29,116 nucleotides of DNA from a virus. A model generated the notes under the pieces. It had not been told where the DNA came from and did no database searches. It saw only the letters and a program-made list of their open reading frames with translations. Below are positions 2,680 to 27,092 of this stretch, in pieces. The DNA is taken from the IMG/VR virus record IMGVR_UViG_3300028800_000264, positions 1 through 29,116 of that record. The stretch is one strand, 5' to 3'. A program made the translations under genes and the position numbers. The first letter of the stretch is position 1, and every line of letters begins with the position of its first letter.

Positions 2680-2690
2680 AGGAGAATAAA

Positions 2691-2861
2691 ATGGAAAGAA
2701 AATTCAAAGTAATTGTATTATTGGGTACCGTAACCGCTGAGGGAGATGACGAAGAGTCTCTAAAGGAGGCAGTTAAGGATGCATTGCTAGAGGCTGTTGA
2801 AAACGATGACGCTGGTGAGGTAGAACTGGACTTCACCGCTGAAGAAGCAGAGGATGATTAG
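2691..2861 (+). CDS. Small acidic protein (56 aa)
   Basis: AAAGGAG lies 7 bases before the ATG. The protein opens with a beta-like stretch (KFKVIVLLGTVTA), then a helix (EESLKEAVKDALLEAVEND), then an acidic tail ending EEAEDD. Strongly acidic small phage proteins sometimes mimic DNA to block host nucleases or other DNA-binding proteins, but nothing here proves that. It sits between two small membrane-protein genes. Confidence 0.6.
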   Translation: MERKFKVIVLLGTVTAEGDDEESLKEAVKDALLEAVENDDAGEVELDFTAEEAEDD

Positions 2862-2862
2862 T

Positions 2863-3030
2863 ATGGATGTGACTATCCCTATCAAATTTAAGAAACAGCC
2901 GCCACTAATTGTCAGAATCGTTTTATTGGTTCCTCTTACCTTGTTCTTTTGGATGGCCATGTTTGGGATAGGGCTACTTATTCCATTTATTATTTTGTTT
3001 GGTAAGTATACTTATAAGGATAATAAATAA
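2863..3030 (+). CDS. Small membrane protein (55 aa)
   Basis: The ATG follows the preceding stop by one base. The N-terminal 12 residues are polar (MDVTIPIKFKKQ), followed by a continuous hydrophobic region from about 15 to 47 that can form two membrane passes, and a positively charged C-terminus (GKYTYKDNK). No family recognised. Confidence 0.6.
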   Translation: MDVTIPIKFKKQPPLIVRIVLLVPLTLFFWMAMFGIGLLIPFIILFGKYTYKDNK

Positions 3031-3056
3031 ACTTATTACTGAAGGAAATAAACATT

Positions 3057-3386
3057 ATGTCCGATAAATGGTGTGTTGGTCTAGTATCGGTAATAGGAGT
3101 AGCTTTTATAGCTCTATTGGTTTGGACTTTATTTATTGATGACGCGTATCATTCGGTAGAAGTTCATCCAAAGTTTAAGGCTGGCCAATGTGTCCAGTTT
3201 TCCGATGATTCTTTCTATAGTCGCTGCTTTGGCACTATTAAATCTTATGAGCGATATGACTATGTTCATAAGGGAGAATCAGCTAATGTAACTTACGGTA
3301 TTCATTTCTTTTGTCAACAAGACGCTCTTATCCCCGCAGAGGGAGAGACAAATGAAATGGAAACAAAACTAAGGGTGTGTCAATGA
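3057..3386 (+). CDS. Membrane-anchored small protein (109 aa), paralogue of the lipoprotein at 12004
   Basis: One N-terminal membrane helix (residues 8-26) precedes a soluble domain with GQCVQFSDDSFYSRCFGTI (43-61), which closely matches GAAVYLSDSFYKGCKGHI (31-48) in the lipoprotein encoded at 12004-12300. Both keep the G-x-x-V-x-x-S-D-x-FY-x-x-C-x-G-x-I pattern and later cysteines. I recognise the pattern as a recurrent small phage protein type without known function. The domain is likely periplasmic. GAAGGAA precedes the ATG; the end overlaps the next gene (ATGA). Confidence 0.7.
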   Translation: MSDKWCVGLVSVIGVAFIALLVWTLFIDDAYHSVEVHPKFKAGQCVQFSDDSFYSRCFGTIKSYERYDYVHKGESANVTYGIHFFCQQDALIPAEGETNEMETKLRVCQ

Positions 3387-3727
3387 AAATCCTTTTAATA
3401 GATGATCTGCGCGATCTAGACTATGTAATCGATAAATATCTGGGCAAAAGTACTACTGGTACAATCGGTTACATAGCAAGAACATACGAACAGGGCATAG
3501 AGGCTCTCAAAACTACGGGTCCCTTCGATCTCCTTTTCTTAGACCACGACCTTGCGAGTTTTGAGGGGGATAGGGAGAAAACTGGATATGACGTTGTCTG
3601 TTTTCTAGAAGCGAATTCTGAGTTGCTCCCTAGGAAAACTATTCTGGTTACCAGTAACCCCGTAGGACGGCAAAAAATGCAGACGGTTCTTGACAAGCTT
3701 TATGAGGATAAAGATGACCAAGATTAG
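3383..3727 (+). CDS. Cyclic-phosphate-processing receiver (cREC)-like protein (114 aa)
   Basis: The fold is receiver-like: an acidic pair at residues 7-8 (LLIDDLR), LDHDL at 53-57 where a response regulator keeps its phospho-acceptor, TGYD at 67-70, and SNPVGRQKM at 91-99. This set, especially LDHDL and SNPVG, fits the cREC family, predicted to process cyclic phosphate ends of RNA or nucleotides, often in phage and RNA-repair settings. A role in RNA repair or in handling cyclic nucleotide signals is inferred; no ligase or kinase gene is adjacent. The ATG at 3383 overlaps the preceding stop and is preferred over the GTG two codons upstream. Confidence 0.75.
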   Translation: MKILLIDDLRDLDYVIDKYLGKSTTGTIGYIARTYEQGIEALKTTGPFDLLFLDHDLASFEGDREKTGYDVVCFLEANSELLPRKTILVTSNPVGRQKMQTVLDKLYEDKDDQD

Positions 3728-3962
3728 AGAGATCAAAGTGGACTGCAAACACAAAGAAGGGCATCTTTATGCTATCGATATCATCGAAGGGCGATTTTGG
3801 GGTACACTTACTGGAAGTGATCCTGATGAAGTAAGAGTAAATAGATATTGTAAACAGTGTAGAGCGCAAATGGGCTATGTTACTCTATATGATAGTCTTT
3901 CAACATTAGAATTTACTTCTCCCGAATTTGATATGTGGTTTAAAGAGAAGAATGGTGAATAA
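3714..3962 (+). CDS. Small putative zinc-binding protein (82 aa)
   Basis: The ATG at 3714 is chosen because AGGA lies 5 bases upstream; other in-frame starts lie deeper in the preceding gene. Residues C11, H13, C46 and C49 (CKH then CKQC) could form a zinc site. The remainder contains FWGTLTGSDPDEV and a C-terminal FDMWFKEKNGE. The stop shares a base with the next ATG (TAATG). Function is unknown. Confidence 0.65.
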   Translation: MTKIREIKVDCKHKEGHLYAIDIIEGRFWGTLTGSDPDEVRVNRYCKQCRAQMGYVTLYDSLSTLEFTSPEFDMWFKEKNGE

Positions 3963-4189
3963 TGAAAACATTTGAACAACTTACTCCAAAACAAGCAATA
4001 AAAGCCCACGAGATTGCCTATCAAAGACTTCAAGAATCAATCGCTATTGGCCTTATTGTGGTTCCAGACGGTACCAATGAACATGACATGGCATTGGAAG
4101 CCGCACAAGGTAGTCAGTATGAAGATGATGGGCGTCCAATAATGAAGCCGATAGATGTACCGTTTTATTTTCAAGGAGGGTGTGTATGA
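3962..4189 (+). CDS. Small hypothetical protein (75 aa)
   Basis: It starts on the last base of the preceding stop. The N-terminal half is helical (LTPKQAIKAHEIAYQRLQES), the C-terminal half polar, ending VPFYFQGGCV. No motif is recognised. The next gene overlaps its stop, with an AGGAGGG site inside this gene's end. Confidence 0.65.
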   Translation: MKTFEQLTPKQAIKAHEIAYQRLQESIAIGLIVVPDGTNEHDMALEAAQGSQYEDDGRPIMKPIDVPFYFQGGCV

Positions 4190-4413
4190 AGAAGTCTGTG
4201 AAATCCACCGATCCCCGTAAGCCACAAATAGTTGGAGCATTAAAAAAAGCTTCTGGTGGCACCAAAGTGACATCTGTTAAGGAGATTGGACTGAATAGAT
4301 TTGAAGGTCACTGTATGAAAATTATCACTTTTGTGAACCCCCATGGGTACACGATTAAGAGCGATAAGTACGAAAGTCTAGGAGTGTTTTCTATAACGGT
4401 GGAGGGTGTGTAA
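4186..4413 (+). CDS. Small basic protein (75 aa)
   Basis: The ATG at 4186 overlaps the upstream stop and has AGGAGGG a few bases before it; an in-frame GTG at 4180 is less likely. The N-terminus is lysine-rich (MKKSVKSTDPRKPQ), and the rest looks like a short beta-rich domain (NRFEGHCMKIITFVNPHGYT). It could contact nucleic acid; no family recognised. The end overlaps the next ATG (TAATG). Confidence 0.65.
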   Translation: MKKSVKSTDPRKPQIVGALKKASGGTKVTSVKEIGLNRFEGHCMKIITFVNPHGYTIKSDKYESLGVFSITVEGV

Positions 4414-4586
4414 TGGAAGAACTAAAAGAAATTCTTGAGAAACTTTCCTCTATAGAAAGTAAAATGGAAATAGTTTTAAATAACTACATTCAGAATCTCC
4501 CCAAGGCACAGCGTGAGAAATTAAGGGAAGAACTAAAGGTACTCGAAACGCGCGAATGGGAACGAAGGATGGGAGATGATTTATGA
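4413..4586 (+). CDS. Small coiled-coil protein (57 aa)
   Basis: Coupled start (TAATG) and coupled end (ATGA) frame a 57-residue protein that is almost entirely charged helix (EELKEILEKLSSIESKMEIV, then KAQREKLREELKVLETREWE), so probably a dimeric coiled coil. It has no membrane or metal motif. It may act as an adaptor or oligomerisation partner; unknown. Confidence 0.6.
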   Translation: MEELKEILEKLSSIESKMEIVLNNYIQNLPKAQREKLREELKVLETREWERRMGDDL

Positions 4587-4855
4587 AAGAATATGTTTTA
4601 AAACAAGCCGATGAAAGCACAGAGGAAACTAAGGCTAGAAGTGCTTTTAAGGTTGGACTATTTCTATACGGTTATTGTCAAGGGCGCTTTGGCAGAGATT
4701 CACATGAAGATAAGAAAATTCTAAAAGTAGGTGATAATTCTATTACGGTAATGGAAAATGGAGTAGTTAGCACTTCTCTTCCTATTACAAGTTGGATAGA
4801 ATTATTGGATAGTTCTAACAATGAACTGGAATCACGCAATACAAAGGGAGATTGA
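4583..4855 (+). CDS. Small hypothetical protein (90 aa)
   Basis: The ATG overlaps the preceding stop. After a polar start the protein has KVGLFLYGYCQGRFGRDS and then a beta-like stretch (KILKVGDNSITVMENGVVS). No known motif is seen. It is part of the same coupled run of small genes. Confidence 0.65.
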   Translation: MKEYVLKQADESTEETKARSAFKVGLFLYGYCQGRFGRDSHEDKKILKVGDNSITVMENGVVSTSLPITSWIELLDSSNNELESRNTKGD

Positions 4856-4857
4856 CA

Positions 4858-5061
4858 ATGAAGTTTAAATTCGGAGATAAAGTTAAAGTGGTTAAGGGTA
4901 AGTTTCACAAGGGGGGTACTGGAATTGTTGTTGGACTCTTCTATGAAGAAGAAAAGCCAAATTTACGTCGGTACCGAGTTGCCCTAGACCACGATACTCA
5001 GATTCACGCTTCCCATAGCTGGCTAGAAAAGGTTAATCCAAAGGATGAGCTTTTAAAGTAG
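4858..5061 (+). CDS. KOW/SH3-like small protein (67 aa)
   Basis: KFGDKVKVVKGKFHKGGTGIVVG resembles a KOW motif (the V-V-x-G-x-x-x-G-x-x-G-x-V pattern of NusG and ribosomal L24 families) in a small SH3-like barrel. The ATG at 4858 is preferred over a TTG two codons upstream because GGGAG sits at the right distance. KOW domains bind RNA or proteins of the transcription and translation apparatus; whether this one does so is inference. Confidence 0.6.
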   Translation: MKFKFGDKVKVVKGKFHKGGTGIVVGLFYEEEKPNLRRYRVALDHDTQIHASHSWLEKVNPKDELLK

Positions 5062-5069
5062 GAGTATTT

Positions 5070-5306
5070 ATGAACGCTACTCAAGCTAAGGCATTGGCTA
5101 AAAAGAATGCTAAAATTTCAGATGAATTATTGAAGAAAATTGAGAAGGCTGCAAAAAATGGATATAGTAGTTTAACTATTACCAATCTATTAGATAAGCC
5201 ATTTACCGCTTCTGATCGCAGTGCGTTGCTTTTACACGGATATACGATCAGTAGTGCGTATGCTGCAACAGCAGAATCGTTTAAATATACAATTAGTTGG
5301 ACTTAA
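5070..5306 (+). CDS. Small phage protein ending in ISW (78 aa), paralogue of the gene at 6734
   Basis: The N-terminal helix (TQAKALAKKNAKISDELLKK) is followed by a GYT/GYK-type segment (LLHGYTISSAY) and the C-terminal YTISW. The same layout, an ala/lys-rich helix, an L-G-Y-x-(I/V)-S segment and a terminal ISW, appears in the 75-aa product at 6734-6961. I recognise this as a recurrent small phage protein type of unknown function. Only 2 bases separate its stop from that of the convergent minus-strand gene. Confidence 0.7.
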   Translation: MNATQAKALAKKNAKISDELLKKIEKAAKNGYSSLTITNLLDKPFTASDRSALLLHGYTISSAYAATAESFKYTISWT

Positions 5307-5308
5307 AA

Positions 5309-5731
5309 CTACTTGTCTTCTTTAAGTTTACTAAAATCTACGGAGCCACGTTTTTGTGATTCTGGTCTAGTGGCTAACTTTTCTACACGTTCCTTAATAG
5401 TATTAAATCTATTCTTCTCGCGCCTCTCAATATGCTCAACAAAAGCTTTTGATTCTTCTTTCTGCTTTTTCATGTAATTGGGATCTTCTAACTTGTAGAT
5501 ATCTTCTAGGATACCTTCTATCTCTTCGAACACATCTAAATCAGCGTAATTGGCCTCTAAGATGGTCCCTATTACCTCTTCCATGTCCATTTGGTATACT
5601 TGGGGTAGCGGAGTGTAAAATCGCTCACTGTAGGCCCTGCAAAACGATTTCCAGGTACTTTCCTCAGTTGGGGTGAGTAGGCTATCAATAGCCTTCAGTT
5701 TACAAAGTGTGAGCAAATCATTAAACATCAT
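5309..5731 (-). CDS. Putative second tail assembly chaperone-type protein (140 aa)
   Basis: It lies 15 bases downstream of the larger chaperone-like gene on the same strand and in the same frame, separated by a single TAA (5747-5749). An aromatic and charged segment (WKSFCRAYSERFYTPLPQVY, then EEVIGTILEANYADLD) and a long charged C-terminal helix resemble proteins found just after the tail assembly chaperone in other phages, comparable in position to the G/G-T pair. The role, coating the tape measure during tail assembly, is inferred. No tape-measure gene follows in this window. Confidence 0.45.
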   Translation of the reverse strand: MMFNDLLTLCKLKAIDSLLTPTEESTWKSFCRAYSERFYTPLPQVYQMDMEEVIGTILEANYADLDVFEEIEGILEDIYKLEDPNYMKKQKEESKAFVEHIERREKNRFNTIKERVEKLATRPESQKRGSVDFSKLKEDK

Positions 5732-5746
5732 GAGGCTCTCTATATT

Positions 5747-6241
5747 TTAGCCTTCATTTTCTTCTTCTGGAGCATCGCCATCTTTTTTGGCCAATGCTTT
5801 CTCGGCTGCAGCTTTAGCTTTCTTAAGCATTTCATCCTTACGCTGCTGTAAAAGGGCCATATATTTGAATTGAGAGGCCACGGCGGCCTCTAAGATGGCT
5901 TCTAGGACTGCTTGGTCAGGTACATCCCCTGCAATGCCATCTACGCCCACTGAAGAGTGCCAAAAGGGAGGGGCAGAGACAACTCGATACTTAAGCTGTG
6001 AAAGCATATAGGCAGCATTATCCTCGGCACTAAATGCCAATGCAGCATTTGGACCAAGCAATTCTCTGTACAAACGCCCGGCAGCAAGCTGCTCTGAAGG
6101 CGTCAGATAGCATTTAAATTTAAAAATCCCCGCGTAAGTTCCAAGAATTGACCCTTCCATGCCCAAAGTCCAAGTGGCAACGTTTCCTTCGATGGCCAAG
6201 TCGGAACGTTTCAAGTAAGCATTAATTTCTTTTTTTGTCAT
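5747..6241 (-). CDS. Putative tail assembly chaperone (164 aa)
   Basis: The protein has FKCYLTPSEQLAAGRLYREL, LKYRVVSAPPFW, GDVPDQAVLEAILEAA and a lysine/alanine-rich C-terminal helix ending in an acidic tail. Together these resemble small myophage tail assembly chaperones, which bind the tape measure. It sits on the minus strand inside a plus-strand block, 15 kb from the tube gene. No Shine-Dalgarno is seen; instead a TGATATAAA promoter-like element lies 6 bases upstream of the ATG, so the mRNA may be leaderless. The annotation is by pattern recognition, not a catalytic motif. Confidence 0.5.
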   Translation of the reverse strand: MTKKEINAYLKRSDLAIEGNVATWTLGMEGSILGTYAGIFKFKCYLTPSEQLAAGRLYRELLGPNAALAFSAEDNAAYMLSQLKYRVVSAPPFWHSSVGVDGIAGDVPDQAVLEAILEAAVASQFKYMALLQQRKDEMLKKAKAAAEKALAKKDGDAPEEENEG

Positions 6242-6247
6242 ACTTTA

Positions 6248-6257
6248 TTTATATCAC
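6248..6257 (-). promoter_or_regulatory. Extended -10 element (TGATATAAA) directly before the chaperone-like gene
   Basis: On the minus strand GTGATATAAA matches the TGnTATAAT extended -10 form with one change. The hexamer ends 6 bases before the ATG, so transcription would start at or next to the start codon, consistent with the absence of a ribosome-binding site. No clear -35 is seen. Confidence 0.4.
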
Positions 6258-6361
6258 ATCTTAAAAATAAACGAAAATTCTGAGTTATTAGCCAATGGGG
6301 AACAACTTTTCTGTATTGTATAGTTTATGAAAAGAGGGGAGGGGTTAGGGTTCTAACGAAC

Positions 6362-6371
6362 TTTATATCAT
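6362..6371 (-). promoter_or_regulatory. Second TGATATAAA element in the divergent intergenic region
   Basis: On the minus strand ATGATATAAA lies about 120 bases upstream of the chaperone-like gene, within the 232-base intergenic region 6242-6473. It matches the other TGATATAA elements of this genome. It could drive a leadered version of the same transcript. Confidence 0.35.
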
Positions 6372-6405
6372 ATCTTTTTAGCTAATTTTAAAAATAATTT
6401 TCAAG

Positions 6406-6473
6406 TTGACTTATTTTACGCAATGCAATAAGCTGGTGAGGTCGGAATAATCCGATCCAAACCGGAGTTACTC
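6406..6473 (+). promoter_or_regulatory. Promoter and 5' hairpin leader for the 6474 gene block
   Basis: TTGACT (6406-6411) and TAAGCT (6429-6434) are separated by 17 bases; the -35 is good and the -10 weak. The predicted transcript start near 6441 coincides with a hairpin, 6440-6446 (GGTCGGA) pairing with 6451-6458 (TCCGATCC) with one extra T and an ATAA loop, so it would sit at the extreme 5' end of the mRNA. GGAG at 6463-6466 is the ribosome site. Such 5' stem-loops often stabilise phage messages. Confidence 0.45.
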
Positions 6474-6734
6474 ATGGTCAATCTAGATGGTTTTAATATG
6501 GTCGAAATTTCCCCAAACATCTGGTCTTTTGAAGTAATTAATGGCGAAACTTACACTGGAACTTTAAAGCAAGTTATCCTATTTGCTGTAAAGCATTATC
6601 ATTTTAACATCTTAGATATCGAAGAAGCCATCAATGATATGATTGAAAATGAACATACCGTCGCACACTTCGGTATGTGGGGAACTTATGTATACGGATT
6701 TACCCCCACTGTTTCTGGAAGGATGGCAAGTTAA
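6474..6734 (+). CDS. Small hypothetical protein (86 aa)
   Basis: First gene of a plus-strand block after a divergent intergenic region, with GGAG 7 bases before the ATG. The N-terminal half is beta-like (ISPNIWSFEVINGETYTGTL), then a helical segment (ILDIEEAINDMIENE), then FGMWGTYVYGFTP. Nothing is recognised. The stop shares a base with the next ATG. Confidence 0.7.
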   Translation: MVNLDGFNMVEISPNIWSFEVINGETYTGTLKQVILFAVKHYHFNILDIEEAINDMIENEHTVAHFGMWGTYVYGFTPTVSGRMAS

Positions 6735-6961
6735 TGAAAGCATCAGAAGCAAGAAAGTTTTCACAAGGAAAAGAGACTAAACGAATTTTATCAATGATTA
6801 AGTATGTTTCTGGATTTGGTATCAAATTCCTATCCCATCCCGGTATTGTTGATGATGAAACCAAGAAGGAATTGGAAGCACTTGGCTATAAGGTAAGCTT
6901 TCATAGGCCGGGGTTCTTTAGTTCTGGCTGGGATACAGATTGTACTGATATTTCTTGGTAA
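6734..6961 (+). CDS. Small phage protein ending in ISW (75 aa), paralogue of the gene at 5070
   Basis: The ATG at 6734 is coupled to the previous stop (TAATG). The layout matches the 5070 product: SEARKFSQGKETKRILSMIK helix, ELEALGYKVSFH, and terminal DISW. The shared features indicate a duplicated family flanking the chaperone-like genes. Function is unknown. Confidence 0.7.
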   Translation: MKASEARKFSQGKETKRILSMIKYVSGFGIKFLSHPGIVDDETKKELEALGYKVSFHRPGFFSSGWDTDCTDISW

Positions 6962-7042
6962 CTAATTGTTCTTGCAAAACATTTGTACGATAAAAGTTCT
7001 TCTTATGAGGCGATTGCAACCTAGGACAGGAAGGGATAAAGA

Positions 7043-7264
7043 ATGAAACGATTAGAATCAGGAAACTGCGAGAGCTGTGGCGTCGAGAAACTCGAAGTCT
7101 TTGAAACTAATGTCATTTACAATAAGCCAAGTAAAATGCTATGTTCCCTCTGTCGTGAAACTCATATTGGAAATGCCGCATTTTGGCCTGACCAGTATCG
7201 GTATGTGACGCCTCAGATGTTGGCTGAGGCAGTACACTGGCTATTAAAGGAGCTTAAAAAATGA
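7043..7264 (+). CDS. Small zinc-ribbon protein (73 aa)
   Basis: C9-x2-C12 and C34-x2-C37 form a four-cysteine zinc ribbon (CESCG and CSLC), followed by a helical C-terminus (PQMLAEAVHWLLKELKK). AGGAAGGG precedes the ATG. Small ribbons like this are common in phages and bind DNA, RNA or protein. The 81-base spacer before it shows no strong promoter. The end overlaps the next ATG by four bases. Confidence 0.7.
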   Translation: MKRLESGNCESCGVEKLEVFETNVIYNKPSKMLCSLCRETHIGNAAFWPDQYRYVTPQMLAEAVHWLLKELKK

Positions 7265-7593
7265 AATCCTTAGATCGAATCAAGGCCAGAATCGTAGCGG
7301 CGACGCCGGAAATCGATGAAAACATTCTCGCGGAAGGGACGGTCCCAGAGTCCAACGAGCATGAGTCCAGCTTGATTGCCGCCAGCACCAGACTAAGAGA
7401 CTTCATCGCCCATTCCCGTACTGACATCCAGCGCACTGTGGCGGCTTTGGAGAAGGCGATAGAGCAGCAGAATCAAATTTTACAGAGCATTAACTCGTTA
7501 ACGTGGGGAGAAATTGCTGAATTCAAGGTGCAAATTGCGGAGAGGAACCAGAGGCAACTCAACCACATTCTGAGTGGTAGAGCGGACGAATAA
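7261..7593 (+). CDS. Small coiled-coil protein (110 aa)
   Basis: The ATG overlaps the preceding stop. After an N-terminal region (DRIKARIVAATPEIDENILA), a long helix covers residues about 45-105 (RLRDFIAHSRTDIQRTVAAL and KAIEQQNQILQSINS), typical of a coiled coil. No motif for catalysis is seen. It precedes three related coiled-coil genes but is not clearly of the same family. Confidence 0.65.
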   Translation: MKSLDRIKARIVAATPEIDENILAEGTVPESNEHESSLIAASTRLRDFIAHSRTDIQRTVAALEKAIEQQNQILQSINSLTWGEIAEFKVQIAERNQRQLNHILSGRADE

Positions 7594-7595
7594 GT

Positions 7596-8033
7596 ATGAT
7601 GACCGGAAGAGATTGCCCTGACTGTGGAAAGGCTCCCTTGGTTCTATTTTTTGACGGCTATCAGACCTATATACAGTGTAAGGATTGCTCGTTTGATGCA
7701 CTTTATGGTGAAGGAAATCAGACTATGACCTCTATTCAAGACGATATCAAGGCGGTGCGGAAAACTCTAGAGGCACTAGATGGCGTTCCGGAGCTTCATT
7801 TGTCTCGCAAGTTAGATCCCGCGATTAACCGCATCCTCACCGAACTCGAGGCCCTTCAGGTGGAGAAGAAGGAGTTGGTAAAGGCATTACATTTCTATGG
7901 GGATAGAGAAAATAATACACCTACTGGGAATTTGTGTGAAGAATCGGGACCGGTGTGGACAGCACCGAGCGCTGTATCTTGGGACAACGGCGACATAGCT
8001 CGCGACGTTCTCTCAAGGGTAAGGGCGGTATGA
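7596..8033 (+). CDS. Lar-like zinc ribbon fused to coiled-coil domain (145 aa)
   Basis: Residues 7-31 hold CPDC and CKDC, a ribbon like those at the start of Lar-type restriction-alleviation proteins, where it is usually CPFCG...CxxCG. From residue 44 the protein restarts with MTSIQDDIKAVRKTLEAL, which matches the true N-termini of the genes at 8317 and 8679, and continues through LEALQVEKKELVKALHFYGD to NGDIARDVLSRV. The ATG at 7725 has AAGGAAA upstream and may be a second start giving a 101-aa form. So this is either a genuine fusion or two nested products. Restriction alleviation is speculative. Confidence 0.65.
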   Translation: MMTGRDCPDCGKAPLVLFFDGYQTYIQCKDCSFDALYGEGNQTMTSIQDDIKAVRKTLEALDGVPELHLSRKLDPAINRILTELEALQVEKKELVKALHFYGDRENNTPTGNLCEESGPVWTAPSAVSWDNGDIARDVLSRVRAV

Positions 8034-8212
8034 CCATAGGCGATATTATCATTCTTATAGAAGAAAGAGAACAGCTTCTCAAAATACTTCACGAACAACA
8101 TAACAATAAGGAGTACTCCCAGAAAAGCCTACAGAGAGACTCTGACCGAATTGCGGAAATTGAGGGCATGGAAGTTGAAATCAAAGATTTGAGCGGAAAG
8201 AGCGAGGGATAG
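8030..8212 (+). CDS. Small coiled-coil protein (60 aa)
   Basis: The ATG at 8030 overlaps the upstream stop (ATGA). The protein is nearly all helix (GDIIILIEEREQLLKILHEQ, then DSDRIAEIEGMEVEIKDL) and probably forms a coiled coil. No family recognised. Confidence 0.6.
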   Translation: MTIGDIIILIEEREQLLKILHEQHNNKEYSQKSLQRDSDRIAEIEGMEVEIKDLSGKSEG

Positions 8213-8215
8213 GAA

Positions 8216-8320
8216 GTGATCTATTCTTGTGGAAATAGTAGAACTACGCTATGGGGACGCATTAAATGCTTTTTCTCTTTCCACTGGAACCTTGGCAGAA
8301 GCAATCGGAGAAAGAAATGA
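8216..8320 (+). CDS. Very short basic protein (34 aa), GTG start
   Basis: A GTG at 8216 with GAGGG 7 bases upstream opens a 34-codon frame whose stop overlaps the next gene's ATG (ATGA), the same coupling used throughout this block. The product contains LWGRIKCFFSFHWN and ends basic (GRSNRRKK), with C and H residues that could bind metal. The fit of ribosome site and overlap makes it likely real; function is unknown. Confidence 0.5.
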   Translation: MIYSCGNSRTTLWGRIKCFFSFHWNLGRSNRRKK

Positions 8321-8682
8321 ATTCAATCCACGACGATATCGCGACAATTAGAACGCTATTGAGGATTTTTCCGCCTGATACCGATCTCGAGGCAGTCTCA
8401 ATATTAGAACGCATCCTTGTCTCCCACGAATCTCTTGAGAAGGGAATCGAACAACTTCTCGTGAGCGAGCGCGGTAACGAAGCGGCCCTTAAGATTGAGC
8501 GCAAGTTAGTAAAGGAGCTTGAAGCGAAGGTGGCGCGGTACGAGAAGGACTTAATAGAGGTTGATAAGGTTATGGGATTTATTTTGAACCGAGATCATAC
8601 ACGTGGATATCCCACACCGAAAGAATGGGCTGAGACAGTGGAAATGGTGTTGATGGCCCGCAAGGAATTGGAGGGGAAATGA
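8317..8682 (+). CDS. Coiled-coil protein (121 aa), member of a tandem family
   Basis: The ATG at 8317 is preferred because GGAG lies 6 bases upstream and the resulting N-terminus, MNSIHDDIATIRTLL, matches those of its neighbours (MTSIQDDIKAVRKTL, MSIHNDIREVKESL). The middle is a coiled coil (ELEAKVARYEKDLIEVDKV), which parallels LEEKVVRYEKALRFY in the next gene. The C-terminus diverges (PTPKEWAETVEMVLMARKEL). Function is unknown. Confidence 0.65.
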   Translation: MNSIHDDIATIRTLLRIFPPDTDLEAVSILERILVSHESLEKGIEQLLVSERGNEAALKIERKLVKELEAKVARYEKDLIEVDKVMGFILNRDHTRGYPTPKEWAETVEMVLMARKELEGK

Positions 8683-9020
8683 GTATTCATAATGATATTC
8701 GAGAAGTAAAAGAATCACTTTGTAGATACTTCAATCCCAATGAAGCGGAAGCAATTGCGCGTATCATCACCTCTCACGAAGCGCTTGAGGCAAGGGTAAT
8801 TCAACTAGAACGAGGATTGCCCAATGAACTTGCTCTGCAAAGACTGCAATACGCACAAATTCAGAAACTAGAAGAGAAGGTGGTTCGGTATGAGAAGGCG
8901 CTACGATTCTATGCGAATGCAAAATCATTAGCCACTCTTGGAACGGATACTAGCGTCGCTGAAAACGGCTTCAATCTGAAATTGGGAAAAATAGCCCGCG
9001 AGGCATTGGAGAAAAAGTAA
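8679..9020 (+). CDS. Coiled-coil protein (113 aa), member of a tandem family
   Basis: It overlaps the previous stop (ATGA). The N-terminus MSIHNDIREVKESL and the SHEALEARVIQLERGL segment align with the upstream gene (SHESLEKGIEQLL). The end, YEKALRFYANAK...GKIAREALEKK, matches a recurrent phage motif (ALxFYAD...ARxAL) also present at 7596. The three genes look like tandem duplicates that have diverged. Function is unknown. Confidence 0.65.
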   Translation: MSIHNDIREVKESLCRYFNPNEAEAIARIITSHEALEARVIQLERGLPNELALQRLQYAQIQKLEEKVVRYEKALRFYANAKSLATLGTDTSVAENGFNLKLGKIAREALEKK

Positions 9021-9223
9021 TGAAAATCATTCTTATTTGTTTTGTTTTTCTATGCTTGACAGGTTGCGGCAATATGCCCCTCTATGAGGCCGAAACAATT
9101 GCTCAGAAATCTTATGAAATAGGATGCATAGAGCGTGGTACCGGTAGCCCTGTAGATAACTTGCAATGTCATATGTCGTCAGAAAAGTTCCATAATGAAT
9201 TACAAAAAGTATGGGAGCGATAA
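9020..9223 (+). CDS. Small lipoprotein (67 aa)
   Basis: A hydrophobic leader (MKIILICFVFLCLTGCG) ends in a lipobox LTGC, with the lipidated cysteine at residue 16. The mature part is about 50 residues with two further cysteines (IGCIERG, LQCHMS). It should be anchored to the inner or outer membrane of a Gram-negative host. Small phage lipoproteins act as outer spanins or superinfection blockers; which applies here is not shown. The start is coupled to the upstream stop (TAATG). Confidence 0.7.
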   Translation: MKIILICFVFLCLTGCGNMPLYEAETIAQKSYEIGCIERGTGSPVDNLQCHMSSEKFHNELQKVWER

Positions 9224-9501
9224 TGAATATAGACAATGGCGAATTGATGCAGGAACGGACACTTACAGTAATTTCTCATGGCGAAGAACGCGGTAAGTCA
9301 ATCAGGAACAGGGTTACTATTCCACAAGGAATGATTGTAAGCGTCATAGCAAGCGAAAATCCTGTTCAGAAAGCTGGCGGTGGAGAACAACATAAGGTTC
9401 ACGTTTTGCTTATGGACGGAAATCAATTAGAGTTATATATTAGCGGTGCAGATCTGGCTACTTTGGAACGAGCAGCAGGCCTATATTTCACTCCCGCTTA
9501 G
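9223..9501 (+). CDS. Small hypothetical protein (92 aa)
   Basis: The ATG at 9223 shares a base with the preceding stop; an ATG four codons upstream is inside that gene and less likely. The product looks like a compact beta-rich domain (RTLTVISHGEERGKSIRNRV, VHVLLMDGNQLELYI) followed by a helix (ADLATLERAAGLYF). No family recognised. Confidence 0.65.
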   Translation: MNIDNGELMQERTLTVISHGEERGKSIRNRVTIPQGMIVSVIASENPVQKAGGGEQHKVHVLLMDGNQLELYISGADLATLERAAGLYFTPA

Positions 9502-11081: not shown

Positions 11082-11460
11082 TGTTTTAGTTATTGTTTCG
11101 CTCCTTTTCTCTCAGATTGCATATGCGGATTGCGATTTTAAGACTGGGATTACTCCGGGTCCGAACAAGACCTTTGTGTATAATGAGGCCTGCCATCAAA
11201 AGGTCGGGGCTTTAGTTCAAGATAATCAAGTGAAGACACAGCAAGTGACTGACCTAACCAAGGCAATCACTCTCAAAGATCTAGCTATAAAGGATAGCGA
11301 TAAGCGTGCCGCCGATTGGATGAACACCAGTGGCACACTTGAGAAGCGCGTTCAAGAAGTAGATAAGCTAGAGAGTACCAATAAATTTCTTTATTTTGGT
11401 CTTGGAGTATTAACCACATTTCTCGCTGCCTACGGCGCCGCTAAGCTGGTAAATAAATGA
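11056..11460 (+). CDS. Exported protein with signal peptide and C-terminal membrane helix (134 aa)
   Basis: AGGAG lies 10 bases before the ATG at 11056. The N-terminus is a signal peptide (about residues 1-25, ending IAYA before DCDFK), and the C-terminus is a membrane helix (FLYFGLGVLTTFLAAYGAAK). Between them is a helical periplasmic stretch (VQDNQVKTQQVTDLTKAITL). A two-ended envelope protein with a coiled periplasmic part could be a unimolecular-spanin-like or lysis accessory protein; this is inference. Two cysteines sit near the mature N-terminus. Its end overlaps the next gene (ATGA). Confidence 0.6.
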   Translation: MKLRNCIISVLVIVSLLFSQIAYADCDFKTGITPGPNKTFVYNEACHQKVGALVQDNQVKTQQVTDLTKAITLKDLAIKDSDKRAADWMNTSGTLEKRVQEVDKLESTNKFLYFGLGVLTTFLAAYGAAKLVNK

Positions 11461-12011
11461 GTTGGGGTGGCATAATTCCAGCCAGTATTTTGATTGATGA
11501 GAAAGAAATTTCTTATTATGTTTATTGGCATATTAATCCAATTACTGGGCGCATTTTCTATATCGGGTTGGGTACTGGCAAGAGAGCTTTTGATAGAAGT
11601 GGTCGTGGTAGAGCATGGAAGAAAGTGGTTAGCGAACTAAAGGCTCAGGGGTTGGTTCCGAGTATAGTGATTGTCGATAACTATCCATCTAGAAAAGACG
11701 CTGCTAAGAGAGAGAAAAAAGAAATTCGTCGAGCCTTGAAAATGGGATATTCTCTAACCAATATAATTGGATTTAAGAATTTTACTGAAAATGACAATGA
11801 AACATACGCATTGATTGGCGACATATTTAGAAATGAAAGAATTGAGCTGGGGATGACACAGAAAGAGGTAGGCAAAATAGCCTCGTTAACCCAACAAAGG
11901 GTGGCCTCCATAGAAGCTGGAACTAGAAATTTTAGATTTGGAACGGCAATTAAAATGGCTAAAGCCCTTAAATTAGAGATTAATTTTTCAAGGGGAAAAA
12001 GAAATGGTTAG
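11457..12011 (+). CDS. GIY-YIG nuclease-like domain fused to XRE-type helix-turn-helix (184 aa)
   Basis: Residues 18-105 fit a GIY-YIG domain: YYVY (20-23), FYIGLG (34-39), a basic helix with R43, and KREKKEI (84-90) supplying a candidate catalytic glutamate. Residues about 120-178 are an XRE-like helix-turn-helix (ERIELGMTQKEVGKIASLTQ, then VASIEAG). In such proteins the HTH would guide cleavage to a target site, as in free-standing homing endonucleases, or the protein could repress its own locus. Catalytic activity is not proven; the first GIY is replaced by YVY, which is a known variation. Starts coupled to the previous gene. Confidence 0.75.
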   Translation: MSWGGIIPASILIDEKEISYYVYWHINPITGRIFYIGLGTGKRAFDRSGRGRAWKKVVSELKAQGLVPSIVIVDNYPSRKDAAKREKKEIRRALKMGYSLTNIIGFKNFTENDNETYALIGDIFRNERIELGMTQKEVGKIASLTQQRVASIEAGTRNFRFGTAIKMAKALKLEINFSRGKRNG

Positions 12012-14017: not shown

Positions 14018-14563
14018 TTAGGATGGCATTCTTACCGATTGAATCGCTTCAAACAGTTCTGGGTGGGCATTAAAAATTGTAAAAAGATCTGCTGGAGCAA
14101 TTGATCCCTTACCGTACCCCGCAAAAATATATCCCAATCCACACGCTGTAAGATAGGCCACACAAAGTTGTGAGCAGATCATTCCCTCATTAAACCAATT
14201 ATTCTGTGATTTAATATCACGTCCAAGTAGACTATTGATTTTACGCCATATAAAATAAATGTATTGAAAAAATCCATATCCAATTTCAAGATCGTTTAAG
14301 ATAGACTGCATAGCCTTATCTTTGATGCTTTGGTCAATCTTGATGTTCCATAGTTGATAAGAGGCAGCTTGATTATTGGAATATTCTGTGTCGAAACGAA
14401 TGTAATCGACACCTCCACCGGCTGCTTCTATACACATTGGGAAGCTCAAGACATCGGGCATGGTTACAAAACTATGGCTGAACTGAGATTGAGTAAACCA
14501 GCGAATACACTTAGAAATAAAACTAGATTCTGTAGTGGCTAATACTAAGTTTCCTGAATTCAT
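14018..14563 (-). CDS. YiiX-like permuted NlpC/P60 (papain-like) protein (181 aa)
   Basis: SQFSHSFVTMPD with H30, CIEAAGGGVDYI with E46 and MICSQLC with C130 match the permuted papain-like fold, where the histidine precedes the cysteine (family hallmark FSH...IEA...CSELV). Family members act on peptide or lipid amide bonds. Next to fibre genes it may be a virion enzyme that modifies the cell surface, or part of lysis; both are inference. The start at 14563 is chosen because GAGGA lies 7 bases upstream and the ATG shares a base with the preceding stop (TAATG); a start 7 codons further upstream is possible. Confidence 0.6.
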   Translation of the reverse strand: MNSGNLVLATTESSFISKCIRWFTQSQFSHSFVTMPDVLSFPMCIEAAGGGVDYIRFDTEYSNNQAASYQLWNIKIDQSIKDKAMQSILNDLEIGYGFFQYIYFIWRKINSLLGRDIKSQNNWFNEGMICSQLCVAYLTACGLGYIFAGYGKGSIAPADLFTIFNAHPELFEAIQSVRMPS

Positions 14564-15243
14564 TATGATGTCCTCATGCCCCATTTAAGGTTGCAATAAA
14601 AGTTTCCATTGACGGTAGCCGTGGCAGAACGCTGAATAGAGATATTGAGATACATCCCCGATGGAATAAATCCGTACCAACCCAAGGTGGATACTTCTGT
14701 AGGGAATACTGGATGTAATGCCCATCCCTGATTTGCCGTGGGTACTTGGATATCGCTATAAGTGCCTATTACAGTTCCAGCTCCCATACCAAGAAGATTG
14801 TCATTATCAGTAATGGTTATACCGGTAACAGCATCTCCATCTGCTCCTGGATAGAACCACGCCTCGCCTTCATCTATGTATCTGCCGTTAGCAGGAGGAT
14901 TAACGCCATTAAACGTCCCAGGAATTTGCAACGTAACTGTGGCAGAGGCTCCGGGGGCGATGTTACTAGATTGCATATTGCTCATCTGCAATAGATAGGC
15001 GACTTGTTCAAATTGAGTCCTGACATTTCCAACTGGAGATGCATTGGCAGATGGCATGAAGTTGGTTTCAAAATCTAACTGATCGCCCGTTGAGGGCGAT
15101 GCGATGGAGATTTGTGTGATTAATTCTGATTGTCCGTCAACTGCCCAAATGTAATATGTGTCAGGCGTAGCAATGTACTGTACGCTAAGATTTCTTGCGG
15201 TCACAAAAGCTTTAAGTGTTGTCCAATCTGTTCCTAACTGCAT
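14563..15243 (-). CDS. Putative virion structural protein (226 aa)
   Basis: The gene follows the 904-aa fibre-like gene by nine bases and overlaps the YiiX-like gene. The product is beta-rich and neutral, with an N-terminal segment (TTLKAFVTARNLSVQYIATP), a middle ASATVTLQIPGTFNGVNPP, and a C-terminal SATATVNGNFYCNLKWGM. It looks like a capsid, collar or fibre accessory protein. No specific family recognised. Confidence 0.6.
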   Translation of the reverse strand: MQLGTDWTTLKAFVTARNLSVQYIATPDTYYIWAVDGQSELITQISIASPSTGDQLDFETNFMPSANASPVGNVRTQFEQVAYLLQMSNMQSSNIAPGASATVTLQIPGTFNGVNPPANGRYIDEGEAWFYPGADGDAVTGITITDNDNLLGMGAGTVIGTYSDIQVPTANQGWALHPVFPTEVSTLGWYGFIPSGMYLNISIQRSATATVNGNFYCNLKWGMRTS

Positions 15244-21757: not shown

Positions 21758-22261
21758 TTACGGGTAACTGGTTGAGCCAAGTTCCGCGTCTCCGATCGTA
21801 CTTTCGTCGGTAACAGCGGTTCCTTTGTATGTGATGTTTACTTTGCTAGATGCTCTGGCATTATAGTTCACATTATTGGTTTCCGGAATGCAATTGATGA
21901 TAGTAGCTAATGGGGTTCCAGGATTTTGTCTGTCATGAACAGTCAAAGTTAGACTGCCCATATTGATGAGGTCTGCAAGGGTTGGAAACTGTCCTAACGC
22001 CTTAACGCCTTTTCCATAGACGCGGAATCCACTGCAGCTCACAGTAACTGCCGAATAAGCAGTGACGACAATTTCTTGTGGTCCGTACTTGCCGAGTGTA
22101 TGAATATCTTCCGTAGTTAAACTTTCATTGATAGTAATACTATCAAAAATTCCTACAACAGCTCCACCGAGAGCATCAGAACTAACATAGGTTCTGCCGC
22201 CAGTAATTGTTTTAGCTGTTAAGGGCCCAGCTGCTGGACTTGGTGTTTGATTAAGTGCCAT
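21758..22261 (-). CDS. Tail tube protein (167 aa)
   Basis: It follows the sheath gene by 12 bases, the standard myophage order. The size and beta-rich sequence fit gp19-like tube proteins: GGAVVGIFDSITINESL, GPQEIVVTAYSAVTVSCSGF, a central helix (TLADLIN), SLTLTVHDR, then NYNARASSKVNITYKGTAV. The tube forms the rigid inner channel pushed out by sheath contraction. AGGAG precedes the ATG. Confidence 0.75.
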   Translation of the reverse strand: MALNQTPSPAAGPLTAKTITGGRTYVSSDALGGAVVGIFDSITINESLTTEDIHTLGKYGPQEIVVTAYSAVTVSCSGFRVYGKGVKALGQFPTLADLINMGSLTLTVHDRQNPGTPLATIINCIPETNNVNYNARASSKVNITYKGTAVTDESTIGDAELGSTSYP

Positions 22262-22273
22262 AATTATCTCCTA

Positions 22274-25045
22274 TTAAACTCCTGCGCTTCCAGTGATTTG
22301 AGAAACGTTAATGTTAATCGGGATGAAGTAAATTGCCGTTGCAAGCTTGATCTCGACAGCTACATCCATTTCTGGTGCGTTGATTGTGATACTTGCGTTT
22401 TTGAATCCCAACGGTGCATCGCTGCTAGAACCAATTAATTTTAATTTTAGATACCCATCCATCTTTTGCGTTAAGAATGATAGCGCAGAAGCTGGAGTGA
22501 CATCAGCTAAAGACTGTCCTACAAACTGAGTGAAAAAGCTTTGAGCTAAATCGAGTGCGATTAAGTCAGAAGCATATACTGCTTGGATAGAATTGTATAC
22601 GAAGTTTGTATCAAAACCATACGTAGTTTGATCGCTAACCCAATATCCAGCTCTTCCGATATCCTTAGAAAGGAAAAGAAGACCGGCAGAGAGTGCGTCC
22701 TCAACATCGCCAGGACTACCAGAGTCAAATCCGCTCGGATCTACAAAACTGATAAGATTTGCAGCTTTGTTTAGAATGGATTTATAAAATCCACCAGCCT
22801 GCATACCAGCCGCTAAACTAGAAGCAAACCAGGGCTGGAATGTCTTGATAACTCCTTGAGAGTTAACCTGCATAACCCCCTGCATAGTTAGAGAGCAACG
22901 ATAATTTGCAAGGCTCTGAGCTTGAACTTTAGCATTTGCATAGGTTCCCAAGAAAGAAAGAATACAAATTCTATTTTTCTTAAGTGAAGGAGTACTGTAT
23001 TGAATGCAATGGCTTTTCGTTGCTGCATTAACAGCCGCTATGGTATAGGTGCTTGCCGGATCGGTCAATCCTGCCGCAATATCCAGACTTGCATCTTCTG
23101 AGAATAAAGGAACGATAATGTTACAGTTAATACCGCCAATTTGGTTCAGAACGTTAATAACGTCAGCTGCCAAAGTAGCCCCTCTGGTACCACCAGATAA
23201 GAAGGTCAGCGTTCCAGGAATTGGAAGACCGGCAAAAACATTAGGAGTAAAGCTAAAAGAAGATGAAGTTCCCATCGTTGTTTGAAATAGATAAGCTGCA
23301 TTCTTAATACGGCCAGGCTGAGTACTAGCTTCAGACGATGCAATTCCAATCGCAGTCACTCTATCTAGAGCTGAAGGGGGTAACTGAACTGCTGAAGGAT
23401 TAGCCGATGCAGAATATCCAGACTGAGAATTGATAAACGTAGCTAAATCACCAATAGTGGTAAATTGAGATAAAGGAATTGACAAGTTACTTCCCGATCC
23501 ACCAGTAACCGTAGTAGTCAATGTAGTAGCATTAATAGTCAAAGTACCGCTAGTACCTTCGTATCCCACAGAAAGAGAAACACTAGGTGCTATGTTGAAA
23601 ATTTGATTGATTCCAGCACTAGCATTTAAGATCTGAACCTCAACTGCCGGCTCTTCGCTAGAAACATATAGACCTTCGGTTAATCCAAGAGCAGCTAAAT
23701 CACCAGGAGTAGAATCAAATAGCTCGAATGATTGCCCAAACCCATTGGCATAAGAACCCGCCTCAATAGCCATAGTAAGAATTACATTGCTAGATAAACC
23801 AGCCGATGCAGTAATTCCAGCAGGAAGCAAGAGATTGAGTTCCTCAACCAATTCGGCAATATCAGAATGAGTAGAACCGATGATTACGCCAGGAGGAAAA
23901 TTAGTAATCGTATTGGTAGGACTAGATCCCACATTTCCAGTAACGGTAGTTCCAGAAGATGCACTTCCAGTAACCGCTGAGGCGCCCAAAAGTCCAAAAC
24001 TACCAGCAAAACCAAGCAACGGGGCTGATTGAGCATTAACCAACGTTGGAGCACTTAACGTAACCGCTCCAGATAGAGCAATCAAGCTACCATTAACAGT
24101 TCCACCGAGAGTATCGGTGATACTAGCGCTAGCAATAACGTTTCCCTGGAAAGTTCCAGTAAAACCTGAATTGATAGTAGCCGAGCTACCGACAACCCAA
24201 TAAATATTAGCTGCAGTTGCACCGCCAGAAAGCGTCATGGTGGGAGTGCCACCTGCGCCAGTGACTAGGGTGCTGGCTACCTGGATAACATATACTCCAG
24301 CGCCGTTAAACGTTAAGGTTCCGGGACCAGAACCTGCTAAGCTAGCAGCACCAGTACTATAAACACCAGGGGTTAGCGTTTGGCCATCGAGTGTAGCAGA
24401 AATAGGGGTTGCGGTCATTCCATTTAAGCTAGTGTAAGCAGAATGCGCAGCCGTCTGAGCAGCAGCAGCCTCAGTAGGATTTACAGGGCCAGAAGAACTA
24501 CTCAGGGTAATTACATCTACAGCTCCACCATTCAAACGAATGGAAAAAGTAGCTCCGTTTAGCGGGGCGCCAAACGCAGGGACCGTATTTCCAGTGAGTT
24601 GAGGTGGAACCTCAGGATTTAGAGAGCTGATTTCGTAATTGAAAAGGTTTCCGCCTACTCCCCAGTTTTGCGCCGTAAATGTTCCATAAGTACCAGAAAA
24701 CGCAGGTACCAATGAAGAGGCCTGAGTACCATTGTTGGTTTTTGCAATATATATTAGATTTGCCGATCCAGTAATATTTGGATCATCAGAAGGAGCCGCT
24801 AAAGCAGTGAACGAGTCTACTATCTGGCCGCTGCCATATAACTGTTCCACATTAGCTAGTTGATCTGGTGTAAAAAATTGATTGGCAAGTACAGACTGAT
24901 GATAACCAGGACCAGCATCTGCTTCGCCCATGATTACAACGATACCAGACAGGCCAAGCCCAACTGGCTGGCTCTGCACAATCACATTGGGATATGCGCC
25001 AGGAATATTTGTATTTACAAACGGTGTAACTAATCTTAGAGACAT
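22274..25045 (-). CDS. Tail sheath protein with inserted ice-binding-type domain (923 aa)
   Basis: The N-terminus (VTPFVNTNIPGAYPNVIV), the middle GGTRGATLAADVINVLNQIG with CNIIVPLF, and the C-terminal region (FLTQKMDGYLKLKL to APEMDVAVEIKL) are those of contractile tail sheath proteins; the C-terminal domain interlocks subunits and binds the tube. At 923 aa it is well above the usual 400-700. Residues about 185-391 are an inserted DUF3494-type domain with swapped halves, described separately. It lies between a loop strand (ATFSIRLNGGAVDVITLS, 165-182) and its partner helix (HSDIAELVEELNLLL, 393-407), so a sheath subdomain is split. A further variable region covers about 408-560. AAAGGAG precedes the ATG. 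Confidence 0.88.
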   Translation of the reverse strand: MSLRLVTPFVNTNIPGAYPNVIVQSQPVGLGLSGIVVIMGEADAGPGYHQSVLANQFFTPDQLANVEQLYGSGQIVDSFTALAAPSDDPNITGSANLIYIAKTNNGTQASSLVPAFSGTYGTFTAQNWGVGGNLFNYEISSLNPEVPPQLTGNTVPAFGAPLNGATFSIRLNGGAVDVITLSSSSGPVNPTEAAAAQTAAHSAYTSLNGMTATPISATLDGQTLTPGVYSTGAASLAGSGPGTLTFNGAGVYVIQVASTLVTGAGGTPTMTLSGGATAANIYWVVGSSATINSGFTGTFQGNVIASASITDTLGGTVNGSLIALSGAVTLSAPTLVNAQSAPLLGFAGSFGLLGASAVTGSASSGTTVTGNVGSSPTNTITNFPPGVIIGSTHSDIAELVEELNLLLPAGITASAGLSSNVILTMAIEAGSYANGFGQSFELFDSTPGDLAALGLTEGLYVSSEEPAVEVQILNASAGINQIFNIAPSVSLSVGYEGTSGTLTINATTLTTTVTGGSGSNLSIPLSQFTTIGDLATFINSQSGYSASANPSAVQLPPSALDRVTAIGIASSEASTQPGRIKNAAYLFQTTMGTSSSFSFTPNVFAGLPIPGTLTFLSGGTRGATLAADVINVLNQIGGINCNIIVPLFSEDASLDIAAGLTDPASTYTIAAVNAATKSHCIQYSTPSLKKNRICILSFLGTYANAKVQAQSLANYRCSLTMQGVMQVNSQGVIKTFQPWFASSLAAGMQAGGFYKSILNKAANLISFVDPSGFDSGSPGDVEDALSAGLLFLSKDIGRAGYWVSDQTTYGFDTNFVYNSIQAVYASDLIALDLAQSFFTQFVGQSLADVTPASALSFLTQKMDGYLKLKLIGSSSDAPLGFKNASITINAPEMDVAVEIKLATAIYFIPININVSQITGSAGV
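23873..24493 (-). other. Circularly permuted DUF3494 (ice-binding-like) domain inside the sheath
   Basis: Sheath residues 185-391. The first part (about 194-335) matches the usual second part of the family: helix AAAAQTAAHSAY, DGQTLTPGVYS, TLTFNGAGVYVIQV, NIYWVVGSSATI, FQGNVIASASIT and NGSLIALSGAVTL. The second part (about 342-390) matches the usual first part: LLGFAGSFGLLGASAV, then VTGNVGSSPTNTITNFPPG. In ordinary members the LG-A-x-x-F-A-V-L and FPPG segments come first. The reading frame is intact throughout. Confidence 0.85.
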
Positions 25046-25361: not shown

Positions 25362-27092
25362 CTATTTGCCCTTTTCGGCTTCTTTATGCTGAGCTTCCGC
25401 ACTGGATTGAGACTGAGAACCCTCTAAGGATTTTCCTCTCTTGTAATGTTTCATTCCAATAAACTTTGCAAGTTTCAAATGGCCCTTCATTTCATCATAT
25501 CCAGGCTTATTTTTGCCATCTTGTCCTACCTGAGTAGGAGTCGTACCGGCCAATTCGTTATTACCCTCTTTCTGCTCTGCCGCGTTATGCTGAGGGTCTT
25601 TCTGATGAGCTAATCGTGCATCGTCTGACGATTTTTTACTTTTTTCGCCTTCTACTTCAAACGCATGATCAGATTTTTCTGGCTCTACAGTTTCTTTTCC
25701 TGCTTCTGAAAGTTTATAGCCCATTTTCTTAGAATTAGAAGTTTCATATTTTTTCATGCTTCCGTCTTCTTGCCAGTCTTCTTGTGCCTTAGTTCGTGGG
25801 AGAGTATCACCCTGCCCACTTTCTACCGTGGGATGGCCACATTCCGGGCACTTACCAGGCTTACTGGCCTTGCCAGCTTTTGGTTCTCCGGGATCAGCAT
25901 TATCACTATAATGTCCATCTGAGCGTCCAGCAGCGCTTCCAATTTCTGATTTACCAATATCTTCAGATTTAGGAAGATTTGGCTTAGGCATGGCCTTTAA
26001 ATCACCTAAAACTTGTTTATGTGTCGCGACCGCTTTGTCTTTCCATTCTTTTGCGGCACCGAGATGTCCACTAGGATCAGCGTGTACTCTATGCATACTC
26101 GGGGCCGGGGCAGCATTTTCATGTTCTTGTCCTATGCGAGCGGCGACTCCGGCATTTGACATTCCTGGCTTGGCTCCCAATCCCGCTTGTCTATGGACGC
26201 CTTTTTCTCCACCAACTTCACCGCGTCCAGGCTTTACATTTAATGCGCCTTCAGCTTTCTCCATACTCTCTTGGTATGTCTTAAAATATTCAACTTTATG
26301 CATTCCAGAGAAATTTTCGCCAATTTTCTCCGTTTTGAACATACTTTCTTCGGCGTTCTCTGACTTTTTCATTTTCTTTTTGTCAGTAGATTTTGCTTGT
26401 TGTGCATCCTTTCCAGTGCTATAATCGTCTGGTTCATCGGGAGCAGCACCGCCGCCACCGCCGCCTGAACCCTCACCACTACCGCCTTCACCTTCTGCGC
26501 CAGGACCGTCGCCACTAGCGACATCGCCTGCATCAGTTCTTCCACCAACATTACTTATATTGATAGTAATTGGAGCCGATTTCCCTTCACCATTTGAGCC
26601 AGTACCACTATTACCAGAAATTGTTAAATTTACCGTACCAGCACCACCAGTTGATGCTCCGCCAGTTGCTGCGCCGCCAGTTCCCGCACCACCAATTCCG
26701 CTACCAACGCCACCAGTTGATGCGCCGCCAGGACTAGATCCACCAGTTTCCGTGTTCGTATCGCCAGTGGACGGAGTTGCCGCTGGAGCTACCGGGGCAG
26801 CCGCCGCTGGAGCTGCAGGAGGCGCTACTGGAGCTGCCGTTGCTGCCGGTGTTGCTGCCGCAGCTGGTGTGGCTTCAGGAGCCGCTGTCGTATCTTCTTC
26901 AGGAGCCGTATCTGCCGTAGAATCAGGTTTCTTAACTTTTTTAGGAGCAATGGCAGCATTTTTACTTGCACTTTCAGCCTTATTCATATCCCCATACTTC
27001 TTTTGAAGGTTGGATTTTTTAAGGATCTCGCCTACTTTTTCAAGTACTGCATTGGCGGCCTGTTTAGCTGTAAAAAGTTTTTCGTTAGCCAT
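25362..27092 (-). CDS. Low-complexity structural or linker protein (576 aa)
   Basis: Residues 1-45 are helical, 57-105 are Ala/Pro-rich (PEATPAAAATPAATAAPVAP), 116-215 are Gly-rich (GGASTGGVGSGIGGAGTGGA), then a lysine- and glutamate-rich region to the end. A CPECGHP at 415-421 has only two cysteines plus a histidine, so it is at best half a zinc site. No globular domain is apparent. It lies upstream of the sheath and may be a flexible neck or scaffold protein; nothing proves this. AGGAG precedes the ATG. Confidence 0.6.
   Translation of the reverse strand: MANEKLFTAKQAANAVLEKVGEILKKSNLQKKYGDMNKAESASKNAAIAPKKVKKPDSTADTAPEEDTTAAPEATPAAAATPAATAAPVAPPAAPAAAAPVAPAATPSTGDTNTETGGSSPGGASTGGVGSGIGGAGTGGAATGGASTGGAGTVNLTISGNSGTGSNGEGKSAPITINISNVGGRTDAGDVASGDGPGAEGEGGSGEGSGGGGGGAAPDEPDDYSTGKDAQQAKSTDKKKMKKSENAEESMFKTEKIGENFSGMHKVEYFKTYQESMEKAEGALNVKPGRGEVGGEKGVHRQAGLGAKPGMSNAGVAARIGQEHENAAPAPSMHRVHADPSGHLGAAKEWKDKAVATHKQVLGDLKAMPKPNLPKSEDIGKSEIGSAAGRSDGHYSDNADPGEPKAGKASKPGKCPECGHPTVESGQGDTLPRTKAQEDWQEDGSMKKYETSNSKKMGYKLSEAGKETVEPEKSDHAFEVEGEKSKKSSDDARLAHQKDPQHNAAEQKEGNNELAGTTPTQVGQDGKNKPGYDEMKGHLKLAKFIGMKHYKRGKSLEGSQSQSSAEAQHKEAEKGK

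Follow-up and report, generated by a model that had tools for sequence, protein, structure and literature searches.

The window analyzed here, meaning the whole stretch of DNA under study, is a virus record of 29,116 bases. An intact ORF at 22274..25045 on the minus strand, preceded by a good Shine-Dalgarno sequence (AAAGGAG), encodes a tail sheath protein of 923 aa that carries a permuted DUF3494 insert; all features of this gene given below lie on the same strand. The host protein had been taken for a tail sheath subunit in a preliminary description of this DNA, and the assignment held: residues 489-920 match the tail sheath family phrog_279 (E 3.8e-27), and the best PDB fold match of the full-length AlphaFold2 model is the tail sheath of phi812 (E 1e-14), in a model of low quality beyond the insert (mean pLDDT 58.8). 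Across the matched parts, the protein shares 41.5% identity with the tail sheath annotated in Myxococcus phage Mx1. Pfam PF04984 was matched in the insert-free relative L076 only, with a score below the cut-off.

The C-terminal sheath region, including the conserved core, spans 22286..23581, matches phrog_279 and is kept in 389 IMG/VR relatives. The insert (23873..24493) divides a sheath subdomain, of which the strand side (FSIRLNGGAVDVITLSSSS, to residue 185; 24491..24553) aligns with the unbroken strand of ~720-aa sheaths, and the helix side (HSDIAELVEELNLLLPAGITASAG...; 23771..23872) aligns with empty-site sheaths such as L089 (HADLATLIIELNSKLPAGIVASAG). A second, unbroken flagellin-IN-like motif lies at 23393..23524, with a weak match that stays below the Pfam cut-off (PF07196, E 0.026).

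Downstream of the sheath gene, 21758..22261 (minus strand) encodes a virion structural protein (phrog_985, E 3.6e-7), which has the tail-tube position in the gene order and, from that position, may serve as the tube. Upstream, a 576-aa protein rich in Ala, Gly and Lys (25362-27092, minus strand) contains a zinc-ribbon-like motif, CPECGHP, and has no family match. Elsewhere in the window, 14018-14584 (minus strand) matches phrog_1128 (enoyl-CoA hydratase/carnithine racemase-like, moron category; E 1.2e-13), and 11457-12011 (plus strand) gave C-terminal helix-turn-helix regulator matches (phrog_3 and others, E ~3e-9).

Segment order of the insert

Judged by its sequence, the insert (residues 185-391, ~205 aa, in frame with the sheath ORF) is a circularly permuted variant of the DUF3494 domain (PF11999, Ice_binding) and not a standard member; it is filed as a permuted variant because its order of helix, coils 2-6 and coil 1 departs from the chain order of the family. 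The permuted domain starts with the long helix (residues 190-208, 24422..24478, from the AlphaFold2 secondary structure) and continues with the solenoid coils β2-β6 (residues 212-339, 24029..24412; solenoid-half profile E 7e-71, coil numbers by homology). The canonical N-terminal half, consisting of the cap and coil β1 with its FPPG end, comes last (residues 342-386, 23888..24022; N-half profile E 3e-21).

The preliminary description had claimed that the usual C-terminal half precedes the N-terminal half, and the two halves, when aligned separately, returned the same swapped order as follows: First, PF11999 aligned residues 188-334 to profile positions 58-206 in two stretches (E 2.9e-30), and the following ~45 residues (LLGFAGSFGLLGASAV...FPPG), scanned alone, matched profile positions 2-38 (E 0.016). 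The PF11999 score of the whole sheath protein was 105.9 bits, above the Pfam gathering cut-off of 28.7 bits, and re-ordering the insert in silico produced a single match over positions 2-206 with 112.8 bits, compared to 102 bits as found. Second, an N-half profile built from canonical-order phage domains only placed this half at residues 344-386 with 41.1 bits, against 13.9 bits for the best of 2000 shuffled tails. The solenoid half was located at residues 212-338 with 194 bits, and a profile search of the sheath for a second copy of either half found none. Third, a profile of the permuted domain matched 24 DUF3494 structures in the PDB, nearly all of them as two swapped stretches; in 6eio_A, profile positions 139-201 fall on chain residues 12-74 and positions 1-149 on residues 78-227. 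A DUF3494 insert in standard order is ruled out by the swapped profile matches, the PDB scan and the canonical-only N-half profile. As in a natural circular permutation, every segment of the family occurs once, in swapped order, within one predicted folding unit, and we regard this anatomy, a permuted DUF3494 domain inside a tail sheath, as nearly certain.

Predicted fold and winding order

AlphaFold2, supplied with 14 related rows, predicted a single solenoid for the insert, opened by a helix of 19 residues (pLDDT 84, 90-98 in the core; pTM 0.81), consistent with the initial proposal that the permuted chain could fold as one domain. All 31 confident Foldseek matches of this model in the PDB were DUF3494 ice-binding proteins, and the match to 6eio had an rmsd of 2.2 over 148 columns with 40% identity. 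The predicted structure is a β-solenoid with a long helix alongside, as in DUF3494. Most of the sequential fold alignments are ~150 columns long, covering the helix and coils 2-6, and a stop at this length is expected from a permutation; in the single confident model, the swapped half would fill the place of coil 1. Two truncated remnants of separate domains, or a fold unlike the ice-binding solenoid, were rejected, since each half is present in one copy and the single confident model matched DUF3494 structures only.

In the solved DUF3494 proteins, the coils stack in space as 1-6-5-4-3-2, so that coil 1 adjoins coil 6, and the long helix follows coil 1 and joins it to coil 2; this coil order has been described as unique to the family (PMC7966756, PMC7277481). 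The permuted chain, helix-2-3-4-5-6-1, is probably an ordinary sequential solenoid, in which the same stack is read straight.

Insertion site and distribution among sheaths

A scan of IMG/VR with the sheath C-terminus gave 389 relatives, and the best 80 of them were kept for reading. Among these best 80, most are ~720 aa long and lack the insert, and nearly all sheaths of 907-995 aa carry it. In the alignment, the insert stands between the strand VITLSSSS and the segment H-SDIAELVEELN, which run on unbroken in L076, L079, L089 and others. The empty sites are clean, and the split comes precisely where a strand of the sheath subdomain gives way to a helix, with the new ends just after FPPG and just before the AAAAQ helix, where they had been placed at the outset. 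The Mx1 sheath was dropped as an empty-site reference because its multiple alignment was ambiguous; L076 and other ~720-aa sheaths were used instead.

Sheaths with the same insertion and sheaths lacking it, both sought at the suggestion of the preliminary description, were found: the swapped order occurs in 27 sheath entries from 23 distinct contigs, and the ~720-aa relatives are without it. No canonical-order insert was seen in the sheaths of the 23 insert-bearing contigs. In three further contigs (L006-L008), the scores and positions of the domain equal those in L005. On a sheath tree of 76 rows, built without the insert sequence, 21 of the 76 sheaths have the insert; its distribution needs eight changes, at least four of which are forced by supported branches. 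The window and L003, both with the insert, form one supported clade with L076, which has no insert and is 76% identical. A second sheath lineage, of the L005 type, carries the insert one hairpin earlier, so that the strand and the helix are left together.

A different module of ~66 aa (YTFTVTSANATAGATYTNNGQTFTV...GTGDATI.F) is inserted in the sheath genes of L073, L112, L119 and L134, where it occupies other loops of this region, and L036 and L037 contain parts of it as well. The module gave no match to Pfam.

Probable mobility of the module and origin of the permutation

The inserts of the window and of the L005-type sheaths are 60-72% identical to each other, against 32-35% identity for the sheath after the insert. 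The reverse holds for L136 and L140, in which the sheath after the insert is 88% identical and the inserts only 69%; this lower similarity of the inserts suggests that the module was replaced between the two. A search for other permuted DUF3494 domains, likewise proposed beforehand, found them in L011/L027 and in L028, within carrier proteins of 530-542 aa and 2422 aa, respectively, and at another cut point in L037. The linker at the junction of the last and the first coil (VNAQ-SS-PLL) is kept in sequence and length in most sheaths, in L011/L027 and in L028. The sheath shares the permuted domain with two or more further types of virion protein, and the same phage group has canonical DUF3494 copies in other large virion-type proteins; these carriers, and the polymorphism of the insert, extend the preliminary description. 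Based on the identity contrasts, the conserved junction, the different insertion sites and the patchy presence, the domain very likely moves in its pre-permuted form between sheath lineages and virion proteins.

Three phage records of 162-171 kb (G002, G003 and G008) have several DUF3494 matches each, located in different large virion-type proteins. In L011 (5353-6978) and L027 (4431-6020), the permuted domain occupies one loop of a host subdomain; what look to be the orthologous proteins of L031, L038 and L066 have a canonical domain in another loop, the whole set being ~440-540 aa long.

In L037 (ORF 2604-9470, 2289 aa), residues ~1080-1275 form a DUF3494 domain that is cut elsewhere, with the order coils, N-half and then helix. 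Since its solenoid groups with bacterial copies, this permutation is probably independent. A tandem canonical array (N-S-N-H-S) was found in L070, which belongs to the same phage group, and such an array would be the expected raw material for a permutation through duplication and trimming. A tree of both halves needs four changes of order, at least two of them forced, and a single origin for all permuted copies is not rejected (p-AU 0.078); the tree of the solenoid half alone is largely unresolved. Two canonical copies fall within the main cluster of permuted ones, which makes any count of permutation events uncertain.

Relatives outside IMG/VR

A search of 50,697 GenBank phage records returned no DUF3494 relatives. 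Two scans of genome contigs gave a single relative locus, seen in the second scan only, in an Acidobacteriaceae MAG labelled palsa. In a table of 297 Acidobacteriota genomes, read by eye, the N-half lay upstream, in the canonical order, wherever both halves co-occurred; two cases included a further N-half, like that of tandem arrays, and no stand-alone permuted DUF3494 domain was found in these genomes. The DUF3494-type matches in a viral structure library were proteins of the giant virus Hyperionvirus only. In the open-access literature, with subscription papers outside the scope, no paper joined DUF3494 with circular permutation, DUF3494 with phage, or ice binding with the tail sheath.

Discussion

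Its sequence, the empty sites and the predicted fold mark the insert as an accessory domain of the sheath, held where a loop connects a strand to a helix in one subdomain. Relative to the canonical DUF3494, the chain would be cut between coil 1 and the long helix, which are connected there by a short loop; with the cut at this place, the new ends would be spatial neighbours, and the domain could hang from the sheath loop with the sheath undisturbed. Loop insertion does not strictly require the permutation, since virion proteins also contain canonical copies as inserts. A role in adhesion has been proposed for the accessory domains of sheaths (PMC9230969). These domains are located away from the tube, so each sheath subunit would be expected to show one copy on the tail exterior; this display is drawn from general sheath architecture because the full-length model is poor outside the insert. 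The most likely role of the exterior copies would be that of a decoration with low-affinity adhesive or surface-retention properties, which has been suggested for the Ig-like domains of sheaths, and we give such a role an even chance. Overall, the best explanation is a mobile, permuted DUF3494 accessory domain that would decorate the outside of the tail as an exchangeable adhesive, a reading that we favor with moderate confidence. A wider scenario, in which permutation to a sequential solenoid arose more than once within one group of large phages and a pre-permuted module, shared between virion proteins, coats contractile tails with very many solenoids that bind ice or other surfaces and retain virions at ice, mineral or cell surfaces, is speculative and probably goes too far.

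The displayed domains might instead bind ice and thereby hold virions at ice or protect them in freeze-thaw. The DUF3494 proteins with which many cold-living microbes bind ice serve their owners in this way. The closest solved relatives of the insert are ice-binding proteins (6eio, 40-42% identity), its lone relative on genome contigs comes from a MAG labelled with a permafrost landform, and many copies per particle would confer avidity. However, the ice-binding site is not marked by any sequence motif conserved across the family (PMC7966756), for which reason sequence cannot decide on this activity, and Pfam lists putative ice-binding-like adhesive domains as a family of their own, PF20597, to which the insert has a weak match as well. 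We consider ice binding possible but rather unlikely.

Doubtful as well is a cementing function, in which the insert would contact neighbouring sheath subunits and stabilize the extended or contracted tail. Domain II of the phi812 sheath, the nearest fold of our sheath, is thought to stabilize the sheath disk (PMC9230969), but the patchy presence of the insert among close sheaths (the window has it, L076 does not) argues against a needed contact, and the L005 group uses a different insertion loop. The insert could also be a neutral passenger that recombination moves about between the multiple DUF3494 copies in these phages, in line with the several DUF3494 stretches in each of the ~162-171 kb phages and with the patchy gain and loss. 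Against this very improbable reading, the insert is under purifying selection where dS is measurable (dN/dS ~0.04-0.21), many domain residues are invariant across the permuted copies, and no frameshift was found in the sheath ORF of the 23 distinct contigs. That the two halves are truncated remnants of a former tandem array is scarcely credible despite the canonical array of L070 in the same phage group, given the confident single-domain model, the conserved linker length and the exactly one complete set of segments kept in 23 contigs.

A permuted accessory domain in a tail sheath would be informative in several respects. The odd winding order of DUF3494 is perhaps not needed for the fold, as the natural permuted version reads in straight spatial order. 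Canonical and permuted copies within one phage group, one of them at another cut point, constitute a natural folding experiment, and the presence or absence of the insert among close relatives makes its effect on virions directly testable. Viruses of bacteria would seem to pass the DUF3494 domain around as a ready-made surface decoration, and the insert would represent a class of tail-sheath decoration absent from a survey of sheaths (PMC9230969).

Compared with the DUF3494 ice-binding proteins 6EIO, AnpIBP (7BWX) and TisAFP7, the insert is likewise predicted to be a solenoid with a long helix, at ~40% identity over 148 columns for 6eio. Those proteins are canonical and free-standing, whereas the insert is permuted and lies inside a phage sheath. 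The DUF3494 proteins of Hyperionvirus belong to a giant virus and not to a phage sheath, and match over ~150 columns only. Among GenBank phages, Mx1 (OR576727) has the nearest sheath and a genome similar in size to the larger relatives; unlike the similar-sized G002, G003 and G008, its genome has no DUF3494 match. In the multi-domain sheaths of phi812, T4 (gp18) and jumbo phages, the core is built from the N- and C-terminal parts and the accessory domains lie mid-chain (PMC9230969), as they do here. The accessory domains known from sheaths are mostly Ig-like β-sandwiches, and the survey does not mention a DUF3494 solenoid (PMC9230969). The insert also differs in fold from the mobile Ig-like domains of phage structural proteins. 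We know of no circular permutation among these mobile domains. Like the insert, they are exchangeable and occur in several virion proteins, and they have been proposed to bind surfaces weakly (PMC9230969).
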